Assembly: GCA_937128505.1 (NCBI GenBank)
Contig: CAKZMM010000108.1
Location: 1 to 64,000, forward strand
Direction of reading: 5' to 3'
From: an uncultured Thermogutta sp.
Lineage (GTDB): Bacteria; Planctomycetota; Planctomycetia; Pirellulales; Thermoguttaceae
Length of the DNA: 64,000 bases
How positions within the stretch are numbered: the stretch's first letter is position 1; every line of letters begins with the position of its first letter. Of this stretch, positions 4,563 to 63,670 are shown piece by piece. Below the pieces are notes generated by a model that saw only the letters and a program-made list of their open reading frames with translations, searched no databases and was not told the DNA's origin. Made by a program: the position numbers and the translations under genes.

Positions 4563-5617
4563 GAAGAAGTTGCCGATGCGGATCCTCCGCGCGTCTGGCT
4601 GACAAGAAGAGTTTCAATCACCGATTGCTGAGCGGCAAAAAACACCCATTGCCCCAAAACGCCTATTCCCCGTTTTACAAACTGCGAATGGCTTAACGGA
4701 AAAGCGTCCAAAGCATCCTCACTTAAACTCGTGATCCCCAAAGATGCGGAGGAGACCGGGACGCCTCGGTCAGCACCTCCTCAAAGGACGCAATGATCCC
4801 CGGGAGAGCGAAGAAGCGAGTGACTACAGCAGCGGCGGTACGCCGTTTGAGCCATGATCCCCGTGAAAGCAAGGGAGCTAGGATTTGTACGGAGCTGCTC
4901 GATCCTCTCCACTGATGATCTTCGTGAGTGCGAGGGAACTTGCGAAGAATAACTGATTACAATCATTCATCCTCAAAAGGCGGCGGCATCTCTCCGGAGT
5001 GGACTATTTCCCAAAACTCAATGCTCTTCGCGGAAGGGGGGTTTTGAGAATTCCAAAAAACTAGGGATAATTTCCCAAGCGAGGGGTTTGGCGGAACTTG
5101 GACGTTTTTGACAGAACATTCGAGGTTTCTGACATAACAGTGGAGTACCGGGAAAATGGAAGGGCCTTCCAGAAATCGGTATCCCCTCCGGATTCGATCA
5201 TGTTCGAAAAACGGGATACCCTCCGCCAAAATGGCCGACCTCGATCGCGCCGAATAAGAGAGCCCCCGCAAGGAAACTCAAAAACGCCGCCTTTGAGCCG
5301 ACTTGTTTCGCCCCCGGGAAAGAGCCCTTTTTGGTTGCCTGGACAACAAGCTGCGATTATCTTCAAGGTAAACATGGGAAACCAAATTGCGTTTACAGAG
5401 CAAATGAGGTCTGCGTTTTTGAGTTCGCTTTCTGACCCAGAAATTCCGGGTATTGAGCCGACTGAATTAAAAACGTGGCCGAAGATTACGGGGCCACGCG
5501 ATCTGAGATCTCCGCTCAACCGCACAGAATCGGGTAGCGCAGCGTCTAATAACTTTTAGTATTTGGCAAGGCCAAGTTTAAAAAGGGTTTTTAGGACTTG
5601 AAAGGAGGTTCACAAGT
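4563..5617. other. 1.05-kb intergenic region with no supported gene
   Basis: Apart from the 61-nt periodic array at 4732-4945 I see no coding region. Short open frames on both strands lack ribosome sites and family-like sequence. The last 40 bases hold the ribosome binding site of the following gene. Confidence 0.7.
4732..4945. CRISPR. Degenerate CRISPR-like array, four units
   Basis: Four related segments beginning tgatcccc or tgatcttc start at 4732, 4794, 4855 and 4916, so the spacings are 62, 61 and 61 nt. The conserved part is about 25 nt (approximate consensus tgatccccgtgaaagcgagg plus gagct). Intervening segments are unrelated. On the minus strand the unit ends in CGGGGATCA, which resembles the right arm of type I-E repeats, whose 29+32 nt unit is 61 nt. 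No cas genes are near. The repeats have diverged too far for an active array. Confidence 0.45.
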
Positions 5618-6985: not shown

Positions 6986-7923
6986 ACCGCGATGCCGAGA
7001 TAGCGTTGTTGCCGAGTACATTCGGTGTTGCCGAGTAGATTCGGTGTTGCCGAGTAGATTCGGCACGATCGGATTTGGCAAGAAACACCGGTTGTTCAAT
7101 CGCAGACGTGCAATGATTGTCGCGATTGCAATTGTCCCTGCGGATGGGATGCCGGAATTGGCGGTTTCTTTTTCCGCGGAAGGCCGCCTATAAAACTCCG
7201 ACGAAAACCGCGAATAAGAAGTAGCTGGCTAAACGGGCGGCGAAACCGGAATGGTTCATCTTGCGTCGGGACAGGCTGCTTCGCTTGTTCGAGCTGACGG
7301 TGCCGGCCGCAATTGAAATTGCTATGGACTTACGGGATGCCCGGCTTTCCCCGTGAGCACCCCGATTGCGAGTTATTAGGCTGCCGTATTGAGTCGACGT
7401 ATTCAATTGCCGACGGGTTCCCAGTACCGGAAGTGCCTTCCGAAATTGGGTAACCCCTCCTTTCGGACTTGCCCATTCCTCCACCAAGGGTTCCCGAGAT
7501 TAGGAACGACGGGAGCTGCTCGCTATGATATTTGGGGAGTTGAAACCCGGAATCAACCCCCCTTTTGCCCGGTCCGCAGCGCGGGAACACCTTTCCCGGC
7601 GGCAACTTTGCTGATTCGATTTTTTACGCGCTACCACCCGCATTGACAAATCTCGACGTGCGCTCGCCGCAAAACTTCAAGCTGAGGTTCCTCAGGTCAA
7701 GTCACATGCGGGTCAACTCACGGATTTAGAGCGTCCAGAAAGCAGTATTCGGGCAGCCCTGAGGACCTTACGACCGCTCGGAAATTCTGCGATCGGCTTG
7801 AAGTCTCAGGTAACTCGGCCTCAAGCTACCTGTTCTTGCGGCCGGGTTCGCTACTTTCATACGGATGGGCCGGTTCACACGCTTGGGCCCGTCCATTTGC
7901 CTGAGCCCGGAATGAACCGCTCG
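6986..7923. other. Intergenic region with no supported gene
   Basis: This lies between the convergent Gfo/Idh/MocA and Hsp70-like genes. Besides the 19-bp tandem repeat near its left end it contains only short open frames without ribosome sites or family-like sequence. Confidence 0.6.
7008..7064. repeat. 19-bp tandem repeat, three copies
   Basis: Units of the form gttgccgagtagattcggt start at 7008, 7027 and 7046. The second and third are nearly identical, and the first has one substitution (c for g). Each unit carries a small inverted element (gccga...tcggt). Confidence 0.8.
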
Positions 7924-28375: not shown

Positions 28376-29272
28376 CGACTCTTCCTCCTTCTTGATGCAT
28401 TTCGAAAAGCACAAAAAATACGGTGAGGGCCATCCTCCGGAAGCTGTTTTGCAGGGATGATCAAATTCCGCAACCCATTCTGGGTCAATTATGACCTCTC
28501 GACTTAGGGAACGCAATTTCCGGGGCCGCCACCCTCGTCGTTCATTACCTGACCCATGGTGGATGAAGCGCCAGGATTTTCTTGGCTCCGCGAGGATCGC
28601 TTAGTAACTTAGTGTGTTCAAGTACTCAATCGGCGCTCATGCGAAAGAGGCGTGCCAGCTTAACATTGATCCTGCGACCGGTCGCAAGGTGTGAACCTTT
28701 GTGCTCTATTCCAGATGAAGCCGGCGGCTATCGATGCAGAAGTAAAATCACCAATAAAGTGCATGACGACTTAGCTGACTGAAGAGCCTTGAAGAGCGGA
28801 AGCCGCGAGTCTAAGCTTGCAAAGGAAAAGGGACACTCGCGAATCGATGGGCAAGACCCTAGGTGTTACCTCAAGCAATCCTTACGAATGCCCCGAACGG
28901 TTTGCCCCGTTTTGTAAAAGATGAGAAATTTTTGTCCCGGATGTTCAGTGACGCTTTCGGTAGCTTATTGGGGATCAAACCCTAAATCTGAAGGCGATTG
29001 ATCAACGATCTGAAGGCGATTGATTAACGATCTGAAGGCAATTGATTAACGGTTAATGACCTTAGCTGCTTGCAAGTTATCGCGTCAATACTTTCGCATA
29101 TCGAGCTTTCTTAGCATGGCCATGCCCATGGAGTACCGATCTCAACTCAAAGTGCCTTTCGATTGCGTGCCGGAGTCAATACGACGCCCATGTTAGCAGT
29201 GCGTTGATGTCAGCCACCCGGAATGTTTGCCGTAGAAGCCGCTCGGTGAAAGCCTTTGGTGGAGTGCAAGAG
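28376..29272. other. Divergent intergenic region
   Basis: 897 bp between divergent genes, so it must hold promoters in both directions; I could not place them. It contains the 22-bp tandem repeat at 28985-29050 and no supported gene. Confidence 0.6.
28985..29050. repeat. 22-bp tandem repeat, three copies
   Basis: Units of the form atctgaaggcgattgat(t/c)aacg start at 28985, 29007 and 29029, with one or two differences each. They lie about 220 bases upstream of the ThuA-like gene. Confidence 0.85.
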
Positions 29273-33250: not shown

Positions 33251-34024
33251 GCTTGCCTCGCACTTCGATTCTCAAAGGGATATGACCGATCTGAACTCTG
33301 GATGATGGCCCCTTTTGGATGTCCCACGTTTTGGCCCAAAAATGGGCTGATTATCTACTCCGCAGCGATACCGCGCGGAGAAACACGAACATTTTTCATG
33401 GTACTGCCGAGTTATCGGCACTAGAACCATGAACATTGGCAAACGTAAATTTTGCAAACGTAAAATAATTAAGAATCAATGAATGAGCGAATCAACGAAG
33501 ATATTTTTTTATTTTGCAGGAAGCTGACGAGGAAGATGCTTTGGCCAGTGGCTGAGGCGGGCAGGCGGGCGGTAATTCCCCCGCTGGTCGAGCCACCATG
33601 CGCCTAAGTTTTTTGCTCTCGTATAATCTTTGATTCCTGAAGTCCATTAGTGCTTGTAGTAGTGCTCATAGTACTTGGTCCAGGGATGCCGGGTTTTCCT
33701 GCTGCCGTCCATTGCCCGAGATCACGCCATCGAGTTATGCGGCGTGCAGGTGATCGAGTTGTGCGGCACTTGCAACAACCTCCGGTTTTTCGGGGGTTAG
33801 TGTCCCCGGGGGCTTCATCACGGCTTCGTAGCGTGCCAGTGGTGGCCGAAGTGTGTAGGAGCCATCGCGTTATGCGCTGGGCAGTTAGGTACTTTTTTTC
33901 ATTCAGATATTGAAGAATCTTTCAGTGAACATTTTTCGATGATGTGCTTCAAGTCCTAGTGGCTCGGAAAAACAAGTCCTAATGGCTCGGAAAAAGCAGT
34001 ACATGCGACGAGAGGAAAATAGTG
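33251..34024. other. Divergent intergenic region before the symporter gene
   Basis: 774 bp, no supported gene. The segment 33728-33880 has loosely repeated phrases (atcgagttatgcggc, atcgagttgtgcggc, atcgcgttatgcgct) without regular spacing. The last 75 bp contain a 23-bp duplication. Confidence 0.55.
33951..33996. repeat. 23-bp tandem duplication upstream of the symporter gene
   Basis: aagtcctagtggctcgg plus aaaaac (33951-33973) is followed by aagtcctaatggctcgg plus aaaaag (33974-33996), two differences in 23. It ends 28 bases before the start codon and thus lies in the promoter or leader. Confidence 0.8.
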
Positions 34025-41817: not shown

Positions 41818-41890
41818 GCCCCCTTAGCTCAGTCGGTAGAGCAACTGACTCTTAATCAGTGGGTCGGAGGTTCGAGTCCTCCAGGGGGCA
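41818..41890 (+). tRNA. tRNA-Lys (anticodon CTT)
   Basis: Complete 73-nt cloverleaf: acceptor GCCCCCT/AGGGGGC, D loop AGCTCAGTCGGTAGAGC, anticodon stem ACTGA/TCAGT with loop CTCTTAA (anticodon CTT), T arm GGAGG-TTCGAGT-CCTCC, discriminator A. CCA is not encoded. It sits directly before a degenerate CRISPR-like array. Confidence 0.97.
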
Positions 41891-42096: not shown

Positions 42097-42955
42097 TCAG
42101 GGATCGCTCCCTTTCCCGCGGAAGGTGGTCCTGGGGATGCGTGCGGTTTCCAATGGTTCCTCGCGGATCACCCTCCCCGCGCGCAGTGGTAGTGGCTGAC
42201 GCGAGCGTATACTTTCTTGGTGCAGGAGTCACCCTCCCCGCGCGCAGTGGTAGTGGTGCTGGAAATTATCCGACCCCAAAGGATTTTGATCACCTTCCAC
42301 GCGCGTAGTGCTCGTAGAGCCTTTAAACGCCTCGAAGCAGTGTTAAGGCCTTGCTTTCCCCGCGCGAAGTGGTTATCGCACTATCCTATTAGGAGGAGGT
42401 CGACTTTAAATCGCTTTCGCCGCGCGCTGTGGCCGTTCGTATCGCTACGTGCCTCTTGCGGAGAGACCTAATCGCTTTTCCCGCACGTGGTGGTGACTGC
42501 ATCACCCGGCCCCAATAACACTCTCATCATCGGTCGCCTTCCCGCGGCTAGTGGTGGTTGCAGGCGCGGAATTTAGCGGATAATTTCAAGTTCATAGCAA
42601 GGCCTTGGCCACCCGAAGTTGATTTTTCTCAAATACGGAACCGAGGAGGCCCCGGTAGTTTCCGGATCATGTCTCCTGGTTTTCTGCGTAACCCGGGTAT
42701 GTTATTTTTCGTTACACCAGCAATGGAGGCCCACCCCTGATTCCCCGCGTACTTTGGATGTGCTTGTGTTTGAGGTAGCAGAGCCGGGGGCTGAGACCTA
42801 CCTTCGCGCGCAGCTCGGATATGCGGACGACATCCTAGCCGAGGACCGGCCCAAGGAGCCTGCCTCCCCGCTTACCTGCGATGCCCAGCCGCAGCGGCTG
42901 CGGACGAGCTTGGTGATGCCCTGCCTCCCCGCGTAGCTGGGATGCCCTCAGCTTG
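42097..42955. CRISPR. Degenerate CRISPR-like array, about 12-14 units of 61 nt
   Basis: Two adjoining runs of diverged repeats. Run 1 has its gtgg anchor at 42125, 42186, 42247, 42308 (gtgc), 42369, 42429, 42490 and 42551: spacing 61, once 60. The copies ending at 42193 and 42254 share 28 identical bases (tcaccctccccgcgcgcagt then ggtagtgg). Others keep only the core t-cccc-gcgcg-(n)-gtgg. Run 2 (about 42681-42946) has units such as ttccccgcgtactttggatg and tccccgcgtagctgggatgc with gatg anchors at 42757, 42818 (gata), 42880 and 42941. These resemble the I-E pattern tccccgcgta...cggggatg. A phase slip of about 20 nt lies between the runs. Segments between repeats are unrelated. No cas gene is in the window. 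Confidence 0.6.
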
Positions 42956-47075: not shown

Positions 47076-48809
47076 TCAAGCCGACTCTTCGCCCTTCAAA
47101 CCCGAGGCGATATCCTTCACATAGATAACCTTGCCATCCCCTGGGGCATAAAAGTCGGGCAAGAAACACTCCTGCCGATAGCCGCAGCGTTCGTAAAAGT
47201 AGCGTGTTTTGGCGTAGTCTTCCCGAGCTGAAGTCTCCACGTAGATGCGGGAACCCCCGGCCCTGCGGACCCGCGATTCAACTTCCGCCATCAGTCGGCG
47301 CCCCAGGCCCTGCCCCTGAAACGGCGGCGAGACGACGATCCAATAAAGATCGAAACGGTTTTCCGTCCCACCAATCGGTCCGAAGCATGCGTAGGCTATC
47401 GGTTGGCCATCAAATTCCGCGATCACAAACTCGTATCCGCTCGCTTCTCCGCGCCGCAAACGCTCCTCGGCCAATTCGACGGCAATGGCCTTTTCCGACG
47501 GGCGGAATACACCGGTGGCGTCGACCATTTGCCCGATCCATTGCAGATCACCCGCATCCAGCCGTTCGCGAAAGACTAATTTGTCTCCTACCGCACGGTA
47601 GGTTGTGAGAGAATTTTTCGAAGGCTGCCCGGTTGGCCCCGCGACATGCTCCGGCCCAGTTGGCCCGAAAAACCTCTGCGATAACGAGGGTTCGGAATTG
47701 TTTGCTCGGCGAGTGTTTTGAATTATTCGCGTTCGTTTGCCGCCGACCCCCGGCACCCTCACCCCCTTACGGTGGCAAGACTCGGTTTTACCGAATCGAA
47801 CTAACGCTTCATCCACGATCCACGCTAGAGCATCTGCGTAGTCGATCCCCGCTTCCTCCAGGATGGCGGCAAACCCAGCATCCGGCGCCAAACACGGGTT
47901 AGTGTTGACCTCCAAAATCCAAGGTTGACCACGGTCATCCACCCGGAAATCCACGCGGGCATAACCCGACAGACCGAAAAGGTGCCAACATGCGACCGCC
48001 AGATCGCTCAGGCGGTTAAGCAGAGCTTTATCTTCCGGAGGAAATTGAAACCGCCGCGGCGTAGCATGGTACTCGAAAGCACTTTCTACCCACTTCGCTC
48101 GATAATCGACAACCCGGGGTTTATCCGGCGCAAAATCGCAAAAAAGAATTTCCGAGGGGGGAAGAACCAATAATCCGCCCGGGCTTGCCAGTAATGCTAC
48201 GTTGAATTCTCGTCCCTCGATAAAAGATTCAGCGTACCATGGCTGCTGTGAAGCCTGCTCATTTTCGGTTAGAAGGATCTTAATCTGCTCAACCGGAAAT
48301 ATCTCCACCACGGGACGTAGGTCGAGCCGTTCGGAACCGTGCGACCATGCCCCTTTGAGAATCCACCGCCCCCCCTCCGGGAAACAAGCCCCCGAATCGC
48401 GTCGCCCCCCGTTCGCCATCCACGGTGCATAGCTTCCCGCAAACCACGCTGGGGTCGGCAACTGAGCCTCCTGGAGAGAAGCTTTCACTTGCCGCTTATC
48501 CGCCGTCGCAAGCAATGCAGTACTCGAAGCCCCAGTGTACGGCAGCCCGATACCGTCCCAAAGAACTGGGGCGAGAACCGCCAAGCGGTCACTGCCGCCC
48601 AGCGACTCCACGAGGTTAAATACCACATTTGGGGAGAACTTCTTTAGCGATTCCCACAAGCTTCCTAGGTCCAGGGATGCCGCAAAAATCGCCACTTCAT
48701 AACCCCGATGCCGCAAAGCTTGTTCTATCCCCGCGGCTTGGACGAGCACATCCCGCTCCGACTCCGAAGCTTGCGCGCCGAGTTCGTTGTGCACAATGGC
48801 CACGCGCAT
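47076..48809 (-). CDS. ATP-grasp ligase fused to a GNAT acetyltransferase
   Basis: 577-residue fusion. Residues 1 to about 310 are a D-Ala-D-Ala-ligase-like ATP-grasp domain (VVFNLVESLGGSDR, LPYTGASSTALLATADK, YAESFIEGREFNVALL, WILEVNTNPCLAPDAGFA). After a linker of about 60 residues, a GNAT domain occupies about 400-575 with the acetyl-CoA motif VSPPFQGQGLGRRLMAEVE and a C-terminal YFYERCGYRQE. The ATP-grasp part should join a carboxylate to an amine, and the GNAT part should acetylate an amine. The ATG at 48809 begins the typical MRVAIVHNE strand; an in-frame GTG lies 21 bases upstream. It is 45 bp downstream of a second ATP-grasp gene and near kamA. Confidence 0.9.
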   Translation of the reverse strand: MRVAIVHNELGAQASESERDVLVQAAGIEQALRHRGYEVAIFAASLDLGSLWESLKKFSPNVVFNLVESLGGSDRLAVLAPVLWDGIGLPYTGASSTALLATADKRQVKASLQEAQLPTPAWFAGSYAPWMANGGRRDSGACFPEGGRWILKGAWSHGSERLDLRPVVEIFPVEQIKILLTENEQASQQPWYAESFIEGREFNVALLASPGGLLVLPPSEILFCDFAPDKPRVVDYRAKWVESAFEYHATPRRFQFPPEDKALLNRLSDLAVACWHLFGLSGYARVDFRVDDRGQPWILEVNTNPCLAPDAGFAAILEEAGIDYADALAWIVDEALVRFGKTESCHRKGVRVPGVGGKRTRIIQNTRRANNSEPSLSQRFFGPTGPEHVAGPTGQPSKNSLTTYRAVGDKLVFRERLDAGDLQWIGQMVDATGVFRPSEKAIAVELAEERLRRGEASGYEFVIAEFDGQPIAYACFGPIGGTENRFDLYWIVVSPPFQGQGLGRRLMAEVESRVRRAGGSRIYVETSAREDYAKTRYFYERCGYRQECFLPDFYAPGDGKVIYVKDIASGLKGEESA

Positions 48810-48854
48810 ATTGTTCCGATATTCCACCACCCCGAGAAGCGTTTTTGATTTGTG

Positions 48855-49877
48855 TCATAACCTGGCGACTGCGGGCCCGCATGAGCTAGCGTTTTGAAAC
48901 CCAGTGCGTCGAACTGCTGAGTCGATAATCCGGCCGATGAGATGCACGTAGGGAATTCCCAAAGCCGTAGCCAGCATGGGAAGATCCGAATGTTGCGGAT
49001 GAAGTCCCGGCAGGGGATTGAGCTCCAAGAACTGCGGCTCACCGGCCGGATTGCATCGCAGGTCGACCCGTCCGGCATCCTGCCCCCCAACCGCCTGCCA
49101 GGCCAAAACCGCCAGTTCCTCAGCCAGCCGTACGACCGGGTCAGCTTCAGACGACACCAACCGATACTCGACACATCGGGCATACTCTTGCTTGTTGCGA
49201 TACGAATACGCATAGGCCTCGGCCTCAGGCCGCAGGATGATTTCCAGCGTTCCCAGGACTTCCGTCTCTTTCCCCCCGCCGAGTACGCCAACGGTGAACT
49301 CTCGCCCGGGCAGATACTCTTCCACTAACACCGGTCCAAACCGTTCAAGCAAGACACGGCAAACCCGGTAAAGTGCCCCCCTGTCGAAAACGACAGACTG
49401 AGCTGAAATCCCCTTGCTTGTCCCCTCGGCCAAAGGCTTCAAAAAAAGCGGCCCTTGAAGCTTCACCGATTCGCACTCGGCCAAACTGAAGACTACCGCA
49501 AAGGCCGGGGTAGGTACGCCCGCGGCCGCCACCGTCAATTTGGCCAAGCGCTTATCCAGACCAATGGCCAGTGTCAACGGATCGGCGAAAGTGTACGGTA
49601 TGCAAAACGCATCCAACAAAGCGGGTACCTGGCTTTCCCGAGCGGTCCCGAAACATCCTTCCGCAATATTGAAGACAAGCTCCCAGCGATCCCCCGCCGC
49701 CAATTTCTGTACCAATTGCCGGATATTGCCGATCCGTACCGGTTCATGCCCAAGTTGCCGAATGGCTTCTTCGATCGCCTGGATGGTATCCGGCAAATCG
49801 AACTCGGCCGCTTGCTCGGGCGAAAAGCCCGCTGCCAGATAGTCGTCCCGTAAGTCGTAGGTCAAACCGATTCGCAT
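48855..49877 (-). CDS. D-Ala-D-Ala-ligase-like ATP-grasp enzyme
   Basis: 340-residue ATP-grasp carboxylate-amine ligase. N-terminal MRIGLTYDLRDDY is followed by WELVFNIAEGCFGTARESQVPALLD, IPYTFADPLTLAIGLDK, the ATP-binding FLKPLAEGTSKGI, LVEEYLPGREFTVGVLG, and the metal-binding FLELNPLPGLHPQHSDLPMLA. It is divergent from true Ddl, and the companion genes (ATP-grasp-GNAT fusion downstream, kamA upstream) argue against a cell-wall role. The ATG at 49877 begins the first beta strand; a longer frame to 49925 has no family-like sequence. It is probably co-transcribed with the fusion gene. Confidence 0.88.
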   Translation of the reverse strand: MRIGLTYDLRDDYLAAGFSPEQAAEFDLPDTIQAIEEAIRQLGHEPVRIGNIRQLVQKLAAGDRWELVFNIAEGCFGTARESQVPALLDAFCIPYTFADPLTLAIGLDKRLAKLTVAAAGVPTPAFAVVFSLAECESVKLQGPLFLKPLAEGTSKGISAQSVVFDRGALYRVCRVLLERFGPVLVEEYLPGREFTVGVLGGGKETEVLGTLEIILRPEAEAYAYSYRNKQEYARCVEYRLVSSEADPVVRLAEELAVLAWQAVGGQDAGRVDLRCNPAGEPQFLELNPLPGLHPQHSDLPMLATALGIPYVHLIGRIIDSAVRRTGFQNASSCGPAVARL

Positions 49878-50614
49878 TTCCGTCCTGGCGAAAACTTTCA
49901 ATGACCACCCTAGAAGTTTTAACACACTCCCTTAACCGCCCGTCTGAGCTCGGATACTACCGGCTATAAACCTCCGGTATACCCCAAGCAAAACCAACCC
50001 AAACCCCCGGATTAGCCATTTTGAGCTGCCCCGGAAGGATGTGATGCACTCGGCCGAGGAAGGCTCACTGAAGCCAAACATTATCGCGAGGAAAGAACAA
50101 TGAGCAAATAGGGCTACCGAGGCCGGACACGTCGCCGCGAAAGCTCCCCTCGATCCATCAGGGCGCCGAATGGTTCTCCGATTGCGCCCACCCGAACTCG
50201 GATTCGCTCTAAAGGGGGTTGACGGAACCGACTTCCAAGTGGGTACATGCAGCAATTGCGGCTGACTGATAAATCCGGATCACAAAAAGGGTAAACATAC
50301 CCTAACCCCCTAAAGTGGCCGAGAATGTCGTCCCTCCCGGCAAAAAACTGAAATTTCGAATCTCCGACAGCTTCCCTGCACCGGTTTTAGTGGGAATCCG
50401 GCTGGATTGAACCGCCGATTGCCTTCAAGGTGTCTATCCCGCCGGCCTTTCGCCCCGATTCTGGCGAAACTTTCCTTCGTAACTGCACCCTTTACGCTAG
50501 AGAGTTCACCGACCTTAGCGCGGCATCGTCCCACCAATCGCGCCTTCTTTAGACGGCTTTCAGGGCAGTTTCGGCGAACATCCGCTATGGTTACCGCTCC
50601 CGGAGAGACCGAAA
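49878..50614. other. Gap between kamA and the ATP-grasp gene
   Basis: 737 bp with no supported gene, on the same strand as its neighbours. The gap leaves open whether kamA and the ligases share a transcript. Confidence 0.55.
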
Positions 50615-55744: not shown

Positions 55745-55960
55745 GGCACAACCAACGTGCACGGGGGAATAAGGCAGGAGGGCGTGGTTCTGAACTCGGG
55801 CCGGCGGAATAACCGACGCGCGCGGGGGAATAGGCCAGAAAAATTTTTGTCAAGCCCCCTTTTTAAAGAATAACCGACGCGCGCGGGGGAATAGGCGGCA
55901 TACGAGAGGACCTCTGGCGGGGCAACCTGAACAACCGACGTGCGCGGGGGAATAGGGCAG
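55745..55960. CRISPR. Degenerate CRISPR-like array inside the pnt operon, four units
   Basis: Four copies of a sequence close to aaccgacgcgcgcgggggaa plus tagg have equivalent bases at 55749, 55810, 55871 and 55932, exactly 61 nt apart each time. Copies 2 and 3 are identical over 28 bases, and copies 1 and 4 differ at a few. Intervening segments of about 33 nt are unrelated. On the minus strand the unit reads cctattcccccgcgcgcgtc then ggtta, similar in layout to I-E repeats. It is the best preserved of the four arrays and lies between pntAB and pntB. Confidence 0.65.
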
Positions 55961-59330: not shown

Positions 59331-59545
59331 GTCAGAATTCTCATGAACGTTATGCTTTCCACCCTTAGAGTTTCCACATACCGCCGTGGGGGTAGCCTCT
59401 CGATGCGGGGAACGTAAGGGCTGCTGTTACCTACGTGGCTCTACTGGATACGGTAGCCCTTCGATGCTGGGAAGCTTGCCGTCGCGTAGCCAACACGAAA
59501 GCCAAACCACGGGGTAGCACTTCGATACGGGCAAGCTAATGCCGG
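59331..59545. CRISPR. Degenerate CRISPR-like array, three to four units
   Basis: Units starting gtagcctctcgatgcgggga, gtagcccttcgatgctggga and gtagcacttcgatacgggca begin at 59392, 59453 and 59514, exactly 61 nt apart. A weaker unit (gtcagaattctcatgaacg) begins at 59331, also in phase. On the minus strand the first reads ttccccgcatcgagaggcta, I-E-like. It starts 19 bp after the stop codon of the amidohydrolase-like gene. Confidence 0.5.
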
Positions 59546-62713: not shown

Positions 62714-63670
62714 CGTCCTTCTTACTCTTGGTTTGAGTTTTCTTAAGCCCGGGTCATGGCGTGAGTTTTCTTGAGCCCGGGGAGCCGTCGCCAATGCAAA
62801 TGAGGATGGCCTACCCGGCTCTCGCCCGGTGTCTCCATACGAGCCGTTACCAAGCCGCAGCGGTGCCGTGAGGGTGGCAAAGAGAGGCGTCAGAAGTTCG
62901 GATCGTTCTTTCGCCCGCTTGCTAACCCCCAATTTCGGCGCTTCCATCTGGGCGGCCTTGTCAGAGTAGGGGAGAGAAAACCAGGGGGAGTCAAGGCCCG
63001 GGCTTCCTCGCCCCCATCACTGTTTGTCAAACACCACAACAGGGAAATCTGTTGCCTTTGAGTGATCATAGGCAAAATCAGGGCGGCCCATCCCCTAATA
63101 CCAAGACTTTTCGCGCTGCTTGAACAAATCGCCCAAAATTGCTATTTGCCGTGCTCCAAGGATCGATTACTGTGAGCCCTGCGCTAAAGGTAGCACCCGC
63201 AGGAGGAACTCGCATATGTCGCCCCCCAGGGAGTGAGGCTTCCGCGGAAGATGGCACCGGGGGGACGGCACGGGCAAGCCCTCTTCGATCAGTCCAAATA
63301 GAACAGAAGTCGCAAGGAAGAGAAGTCGCACAACGGAGCGTAAATTGGGTGCCACCTGAGAAAGATTGGCCAATCTGAGGCCTAACTTTTTATTGATGAT
63401 AACAATTTTTATTGATGACAATAAATTTCTTGATGAAAATTTTTTATTGATGACAACAAATATTTTTTATTGATGACAACAGATAAAAACTATAAGCAAA
63501 AGTGATTATTTATATCGGCAAGATTAACATTGAGATTATCTAGGGCGAAAGAAAGGTTTATTTAGGCTTCCTGAGGCTTGACTAAAAAGCGAACCGTTTT
63601 TTGCCCACGGTATTGAAGGCGAAGGACGGGGTTTTCCAAACCTCTCCAGGGAAGGAGGTGCTCGCAGAGC
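62714..63670. other. Intergenic region with two repeat tracts
   Basis: No supported gene. gagttttcttaagcccggg (62735) recurs as gagttttcttgagcccggg (62763), 28 bp apart. An A/T-rich tandem tract at 63387-63486 is listed separately. Confidence 0.6.
63387..63486. repeat. Irregular tandem repeat of tttttattgatgacaaca, about five units
   Basis: Units near 63387, 63406, 63426, 63440 and 63464 share tttttattgatga(c/t)aa; the last two are nearly identical with a 24-bp period. Base composition is far more A/T-rich than the flanks. Confidence 0.8.

Follow-up and report, generated by a model that had tools for sequence, protein, structure and literature searches.

Mini-arrays with a type I-E period in a Thermogutta genome, probable products of off-target Cas1-Cas2 integration

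Diverged repeat arrays in the window

The window that we analyzed, a 64,000-nt stretch of DNA from an uncultured Thermogutta sp., holds at 42097-42955 a wholly intergenic tract in which degenerate repeats recur about every 61 nt. The gene content of the DNA suggests a planctomycete. Autocorrelation of this tract is highest at lag 61, where identity reaches 0.388 and exceeds the other lags by 6.2 SD; lags 122 and 183 are likewise elevated, and the tract is the strongest lag-61 stretch in the window. The original prediction had proposed heavily diverged CRISPR-type units spaced on a type I-E ruler (61 nt), and both the autocorrelation and a realignment of the units bear this out. It had also counted 12-14 units in a single phased run; the period of ~61 nt stands, whereas the clear units number 12 and fall into two blocks, the second of which is ~19 nt out of phase with the first. 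Its suggestion that two arrays might be involved was sound, as blocks A and B are separated by ~200 nt in which we found no convincing unit.

41818-41890, plus strand: tRNA-Lys (CTT), upstream neighbor of array A
42107-42561, no strand assigned: array A, 8 diverged ~28-nt repeats with unrelated ~33-nt inserts
42737-42948, no strand assigned: array B, 4 units of a second repeat form, CTGCCTCCCCGCGTAGCTGGGATGCCC

The realigned units of array A start at 42107, 42168, 42229, 42290, 42351, 42411, 42472, and 42534 (spacings of 61, 61, 61, 61, 60, 61, and 62 nt). Units 2 and 3 (42168 and 42229) form an exact 28-nt duplication, the remaining units match these two at 13-22 of 28 positions, and the repeats of the array, compared among themselves, are 12-28/28 alike. 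The units of array B start at 42737, 42798, 42860, and 42921 (spacings of 61, 62, and 61 nt), and the final two agree at 24 of 28 positions. The inserts throughout the tract are mutually unalignable, with ~20% identity, which excludes simple tandem duplication, the outcome that the original prediction had set against its own reading. Three further arrays lie in the window:

4793-4942, no strand assigned: array D, 3 units of approximately ATGATCCCCGTGAGAGCGAGGGAGCTAG, 61-nt period, 19-22/28 alike, intergenic
55746-55956, no strand assigned: array C, 4 units of GAATAACCGACGCGCGCGGGGGAATAGG with a period of exactly 61 nt, two of them identical, upstream of a 466-aa ORF (56163)
59390-59539, no strand assigned: array E, 3 units of approximately GGGTAGCCCTTCGATGCGGGGAAGCTTA, 61-nt period, 20-21/28 alike, intergenic

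Because these other elements do not lie beside tRNA genes, the adjacency of tRNA-Lys to array A is probably incidental. The window also encodes, at 47076-48830, a 584-aa protein in which a D-Ala-D-Ala ligase-like ATP-grasp domain is fused to a GNAT acetyltransferase domain at the C terminus; its gene is followed by a second ATP-grasp-like ORF at 48855-49925. Near-perfect short tandem repeats with units of 19-23 nt or 35 nt occur at 7007-7063, 28986-29051, 33950-33995, and 63389-63485.

The native type I-E system and its ruler

The tract had originally been taken for an old array preserved without cas function, a view that the rest of the genome contradicts. A search for cas genes and intact arrays recovered both: contig C102 carries on its minus strand a complete type I-E operon (cas3e, cas8e, cas11e, cas6e, cas7e, cas5e, cas1e, and cas2), in which the cas1e and cas2 open reading frames are intact and an RNase_H_2-family gene comes after cas2. 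An intact native array lies at the contig edge (C102:19-168) and consists of the repeat GGATCATCCCTGCGTGTGCAGGGAGAAC in three perfect copies spaced 61 nt apart. Its 28-nt repeat and 61-nt period set the native ruler at 28 + 33 = 61, and near-identical native repeats are present in the genus-mates G001 and G002. The RNase_H_2-family gene, which lies between cas2 and the native array (L006:234-1055), overlaps cas2 and encodes 273 aa; its product may be an exonuclease of the DnaQ type that trims prespacers.

A second CRISPR of another type is found at L005:13101-13285 (C122:31100), with three copies of CGCAATTCGCGGGATCATTTGGATGAGATTGAAAC at ~74-75 nt spacing and a 365-aa cas1 a few kilobases away (C122:27990). 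We saw no ectopic elements with its ~74-75 nt period, and this CRISPR, whose repeats are longer, was rejected as a source of the mini-arrays because its period is ~72-75.

We compared 20 in-register sites with the native repeat and found 12.05 matches out of 28 on average, against 8.57/28 for GC-matched background (p=2e-8). The agreement resides mainly in CCC at positions 7-9, C11, GC at 16-17, and GG at 20-21, and the common positions are the CCC...GGG inverted-repeat arms. The consensus of array A matches the native repeat at 14 of 28 positions, and two elements (L085 and L121) barely resemble it. Hairpin strength at the sites is not higher than background (stem p=0.10, MFE p=0.28), so the signal is a motif and not stem stability. 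In the two-ruler model of Goren and colleagues, inverted-repeat arms are reportedly the anchors of type I-E Cas1-Cas2. That model (Goren et al. 2016) is drawn on here as it is cited in passages of PMC9456107 and PMC12259127.

Mini-arrays across the genome and its relatives

We scanned lags 46 to 80 over 864 kb including the window, a non-random sample of ~15% of the genome. Lag 61 yielded 17 elements, the native array being one of them, whereas the other lags averaged 0.76; for lags not divisible by 3 the mean was 0.35, with a maximum of 3 elements in the same 864 kb, and a Markov-resampled version of the genome sample gave no lag-61 element at all. The sample thus contains at least 16 non-native mini-arrays, 5 of them in the window (A-E) and 11 candidates elsewhere:

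C102: 10250 (upstream of cas3), 20471, 32528, and 64592 (element J)
C118: 24387 and 46030
C84: 89092, 97181, and 248449
C10 and C83: C10:2383 and C83:13593

The weakest are B, C83:13593, C118:46030, and C84:89092, and a chance match could be among them. This is a density of ~18 elements per Mb in a natural genome, and by extrapolation from the non-random 864-kb sample we estimate a whole-genome total of roughly 75-100.

Each element has its own, different repeat, and this lack of a common repeat argues against a single array that dispersed or decayed. The freshest elements are exact 28-nt duplications flanking a 33-nt insert, which equal the native repeat and spacer lengths; C102:20471 and C84:97181 are single-spacer elements with a perfect 28-nt duplication. 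The duplication is also 28 nt long in A and 28-29 nt long in C, in J, and in G002. Among 21 elements compared with ORFs of at least 150 aa, 16 show no overlap, 2 overlap slightly, and 3 fall on spurious-looking ORFs; such an intergenic bias is expected, because inserting 61 nt puts a gene out of frame. Several elements are located upstream of genes. Two array-like elements with I-E-like repeats and a 60-nt period (28+32), L090:2482-2640 (C144) and L076:14545-14578 (C83), are probably of the same kind but have a shorter spacer.

No spacer matched phages, plasmids, IMG/VR contigs, or the surveyed DNA of the genome itself; a match of one spacer to a Paracoccus plasmid (E=0.2) was dismissed as chance. 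The spacers resemble DNA in their neighborhood no more closely than DNA farther away (18.47 vs 18.59 matches of 33, p=0.25). An RNA family search returned a single sub-threshold match.

Among relatives, genus-mates that have a I-E system also harbor such elements: G001 holds five non-native ones in 478 kb, and G002 a single clear one in 421 kb. At lag 61, 600 kb of a family member that lacks cas8e yielded no excess, and two I-E genomes of another genus yielded only their native array in 200 kb. The latter result indicates that a I-E system alone is not sufficient. A scan with Cas8e for further relatives returned none. A direct DNA search for the locus of arrays A and B in 60 relatives found no counterpart, and the synteny of the tRNA-Lys neighborhood is not conserved in genus-mates. 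Genus-mates are ~70% identical in coding DNA and their intergenic regions cannot be aligned, including the region next to array D in G001; accordingly, no empty sites were readable in them.

Origin of the mini-arrays and comparison with known systems

These data make it quite probable that A and B belong to a genome-wide set of neo-CRISPR elements that arose by leaderless, off-target integration by the native type I-E Cas1-Cas2, regrew slowly, and decayed. We suggest that Cas1-Cas2 occasionally puts a 33-nt prespacer into an intergenic, repeat-like site whose CCC...GGG inverted-repeat arms stand at the right distance. Staggered integration would duplicate the 28-nt target and produce repeat-spacer-repeat at a 61-nt period; at some sites later integrations might reuse one copy, giving slow leaderless growth with mutations in between, and the repeats would drift because nothing keeps them alike. 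A perfect 28-nt duplication around 33 nt is the trace expected of one staggered I-E integration. The 28+33 signature, the lag-61 excess, repeats that are specific to their site and resemble the native repeat, the intact I-E operon, the intergenic location, and the absence of an excess in the relative without I-E all point to Cas1-Cas2 as the maker of the mini-arrays.

The units themselves suggest an order of growth. A, C, and J each contain two or three identical units next to others that are ~17-26/28 alike. A single burst followed by uniform decay reproduced A in 0 of 2000 simulations and is rejected, as it is, weakly, for J (0.02). Identical pairs beside diverged units, together with the failure of uniform decay, suggest slow growth with mutation between integrations; gene conversion between units may have played a part as well. 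The youngest units are internal to the arrays, unlike the leader-end growth of ordinary arrays, and a comparison of 18 element flanks, taken within 15 nt of the repeats, revealed no common motif beyond what shuffled sequence gave, a weak test given that orientation is uncertain. With the youngest units internal and no common leader, growth is probably not leader-polarized. Most of the mini-arrays are presumably non-functional by-products. An extension of the integration scenario, in which de novo array birth is ongoing and an ordinary route in the genus, with leaderless off-target seeds of which some give putative crRNAs for Cascade, is unlikely but conceivable; were it true, a single lineage would display the whole course from a lone insertion through an array to a fossil.

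Improbable, by comparison with off-target integration, is the view that A and B derive from one or several formerly leader-driven I-E arrays of an earlier system with a different repeat, whose cas genes were lost and whose units decayed. The 61-nt period and I-E-like repeats would fit, trailer-end decay of arrays is well known, and most units of A are diverged. The single old array that the original prediction had offered as one reading fails on the simulations for A, and its repeat is not recognizable as a worn native copy. Some 16 separate lost systems, each with another repeat, would moreover be needed in 15% of the genome to account for the mini-arrays; perfect-repeat single-spacer elements are unexpected after long decay; and a profile search of 119 family genomes for intact arrays with A's repeat returned, on inspection by eye, only A, a weak pair in G001, and chance matches.

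That the mini-arrays are functional regulatory ectopic repeats, CreA-like or producing CRISPR-derived RNA, with repeats that are adaptively degenerate, is very improbable. Degeneracy is typical of such repeats (PMC9458426), and the position of several elements upstream of genes would suit them. What is common with the native repeat, however, is only the integrase anchors and not the part expected for Cas6e, the sites are too many and have no common partner gene, and the even matching of spacers to near and far DNA, with no local targets, speaks against a CreTA-type regulatory role. The dispersed, intergenic, G+C-rich character of the elements might recall an unrelated 61-nt repeat family or mobile element (tandem hairpins, iterons, miniature transposons), but this is the least probable reading, as inserts are unrelated within and between elements and repeats vary by site, where a mobile element would have a constant insert and iterons a constant repeat, and the native I-E array has the very same period, duplication length, and site motif.

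If off-target integration is the correct reading, new CRISPR arrays have been caught being born in nature, and the estimated 75-100 scars would make the natural site preference of the integrase, the polarity of growth, and the birth rate of new arrays readable from sequence. A caution also follows: an orphan array that is short and diverged is not necessarily what remains of a lost CRISPR system.

To our knowledge, the evidence on how CRISPR arrays come into being at a distance from cas genes comprises overexpression in the laboratory and a few cases from nature. The work of Nivala, Shipman and Church reportedly concerned E. coli overexpressing Cas1-Cas2, together with a few natural candidates. 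Passages of PMC11788318 and PMC9456107 that cite Nivala, Shipman and Church (2018) treat off-target Cas1-Cas2 integration in vivo and neo-CRISPR loci as known. Our literature search, whose coverage mostly excluded subscription papers, found no description of such elements at this natural density.

With the native I-E array (C102:19-168) the mini-arrays have in common a 28-nt repeat, a 61-nt period, and unrelated spacers, whereas their repeats are diverged and site-specific and they show no common leader and no adjacent cas genes. Like orphan or degenerate CRISPR arrays (PMC8616872) they are short and lie away from cas genes; such arrays, however, usually occur as one or a few with the repeat of a known system, whereas here there are many, each with its own repeat. 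CreTA and other ectopic repeats (PMC9458426) likewise consist of degenerate, CRISPR-like units that stand outside the arrays of a genome whose type I system is intact, but CreA repeats derive from native ones and have lost acquisition features, whereas the mini-arrays keep the acquisition anchors and their spacers have no local target. The neo-CRISPR loci (Nivala 2018) reportedly also have repeat-like sites and a duplicated target around the spacer, and arise by I-E Cas1-Cas2 integration outside an array, as the mini-arrays probably do; the present elements differ in their density of ~18 per Mb, in occurring in a natural genome, and in that many have grown to 3-8 units and then diverged. Given that off-target integration is a known process and that no description at such density was found, we regard the mini-arrays as a large-scale natural variant of it.
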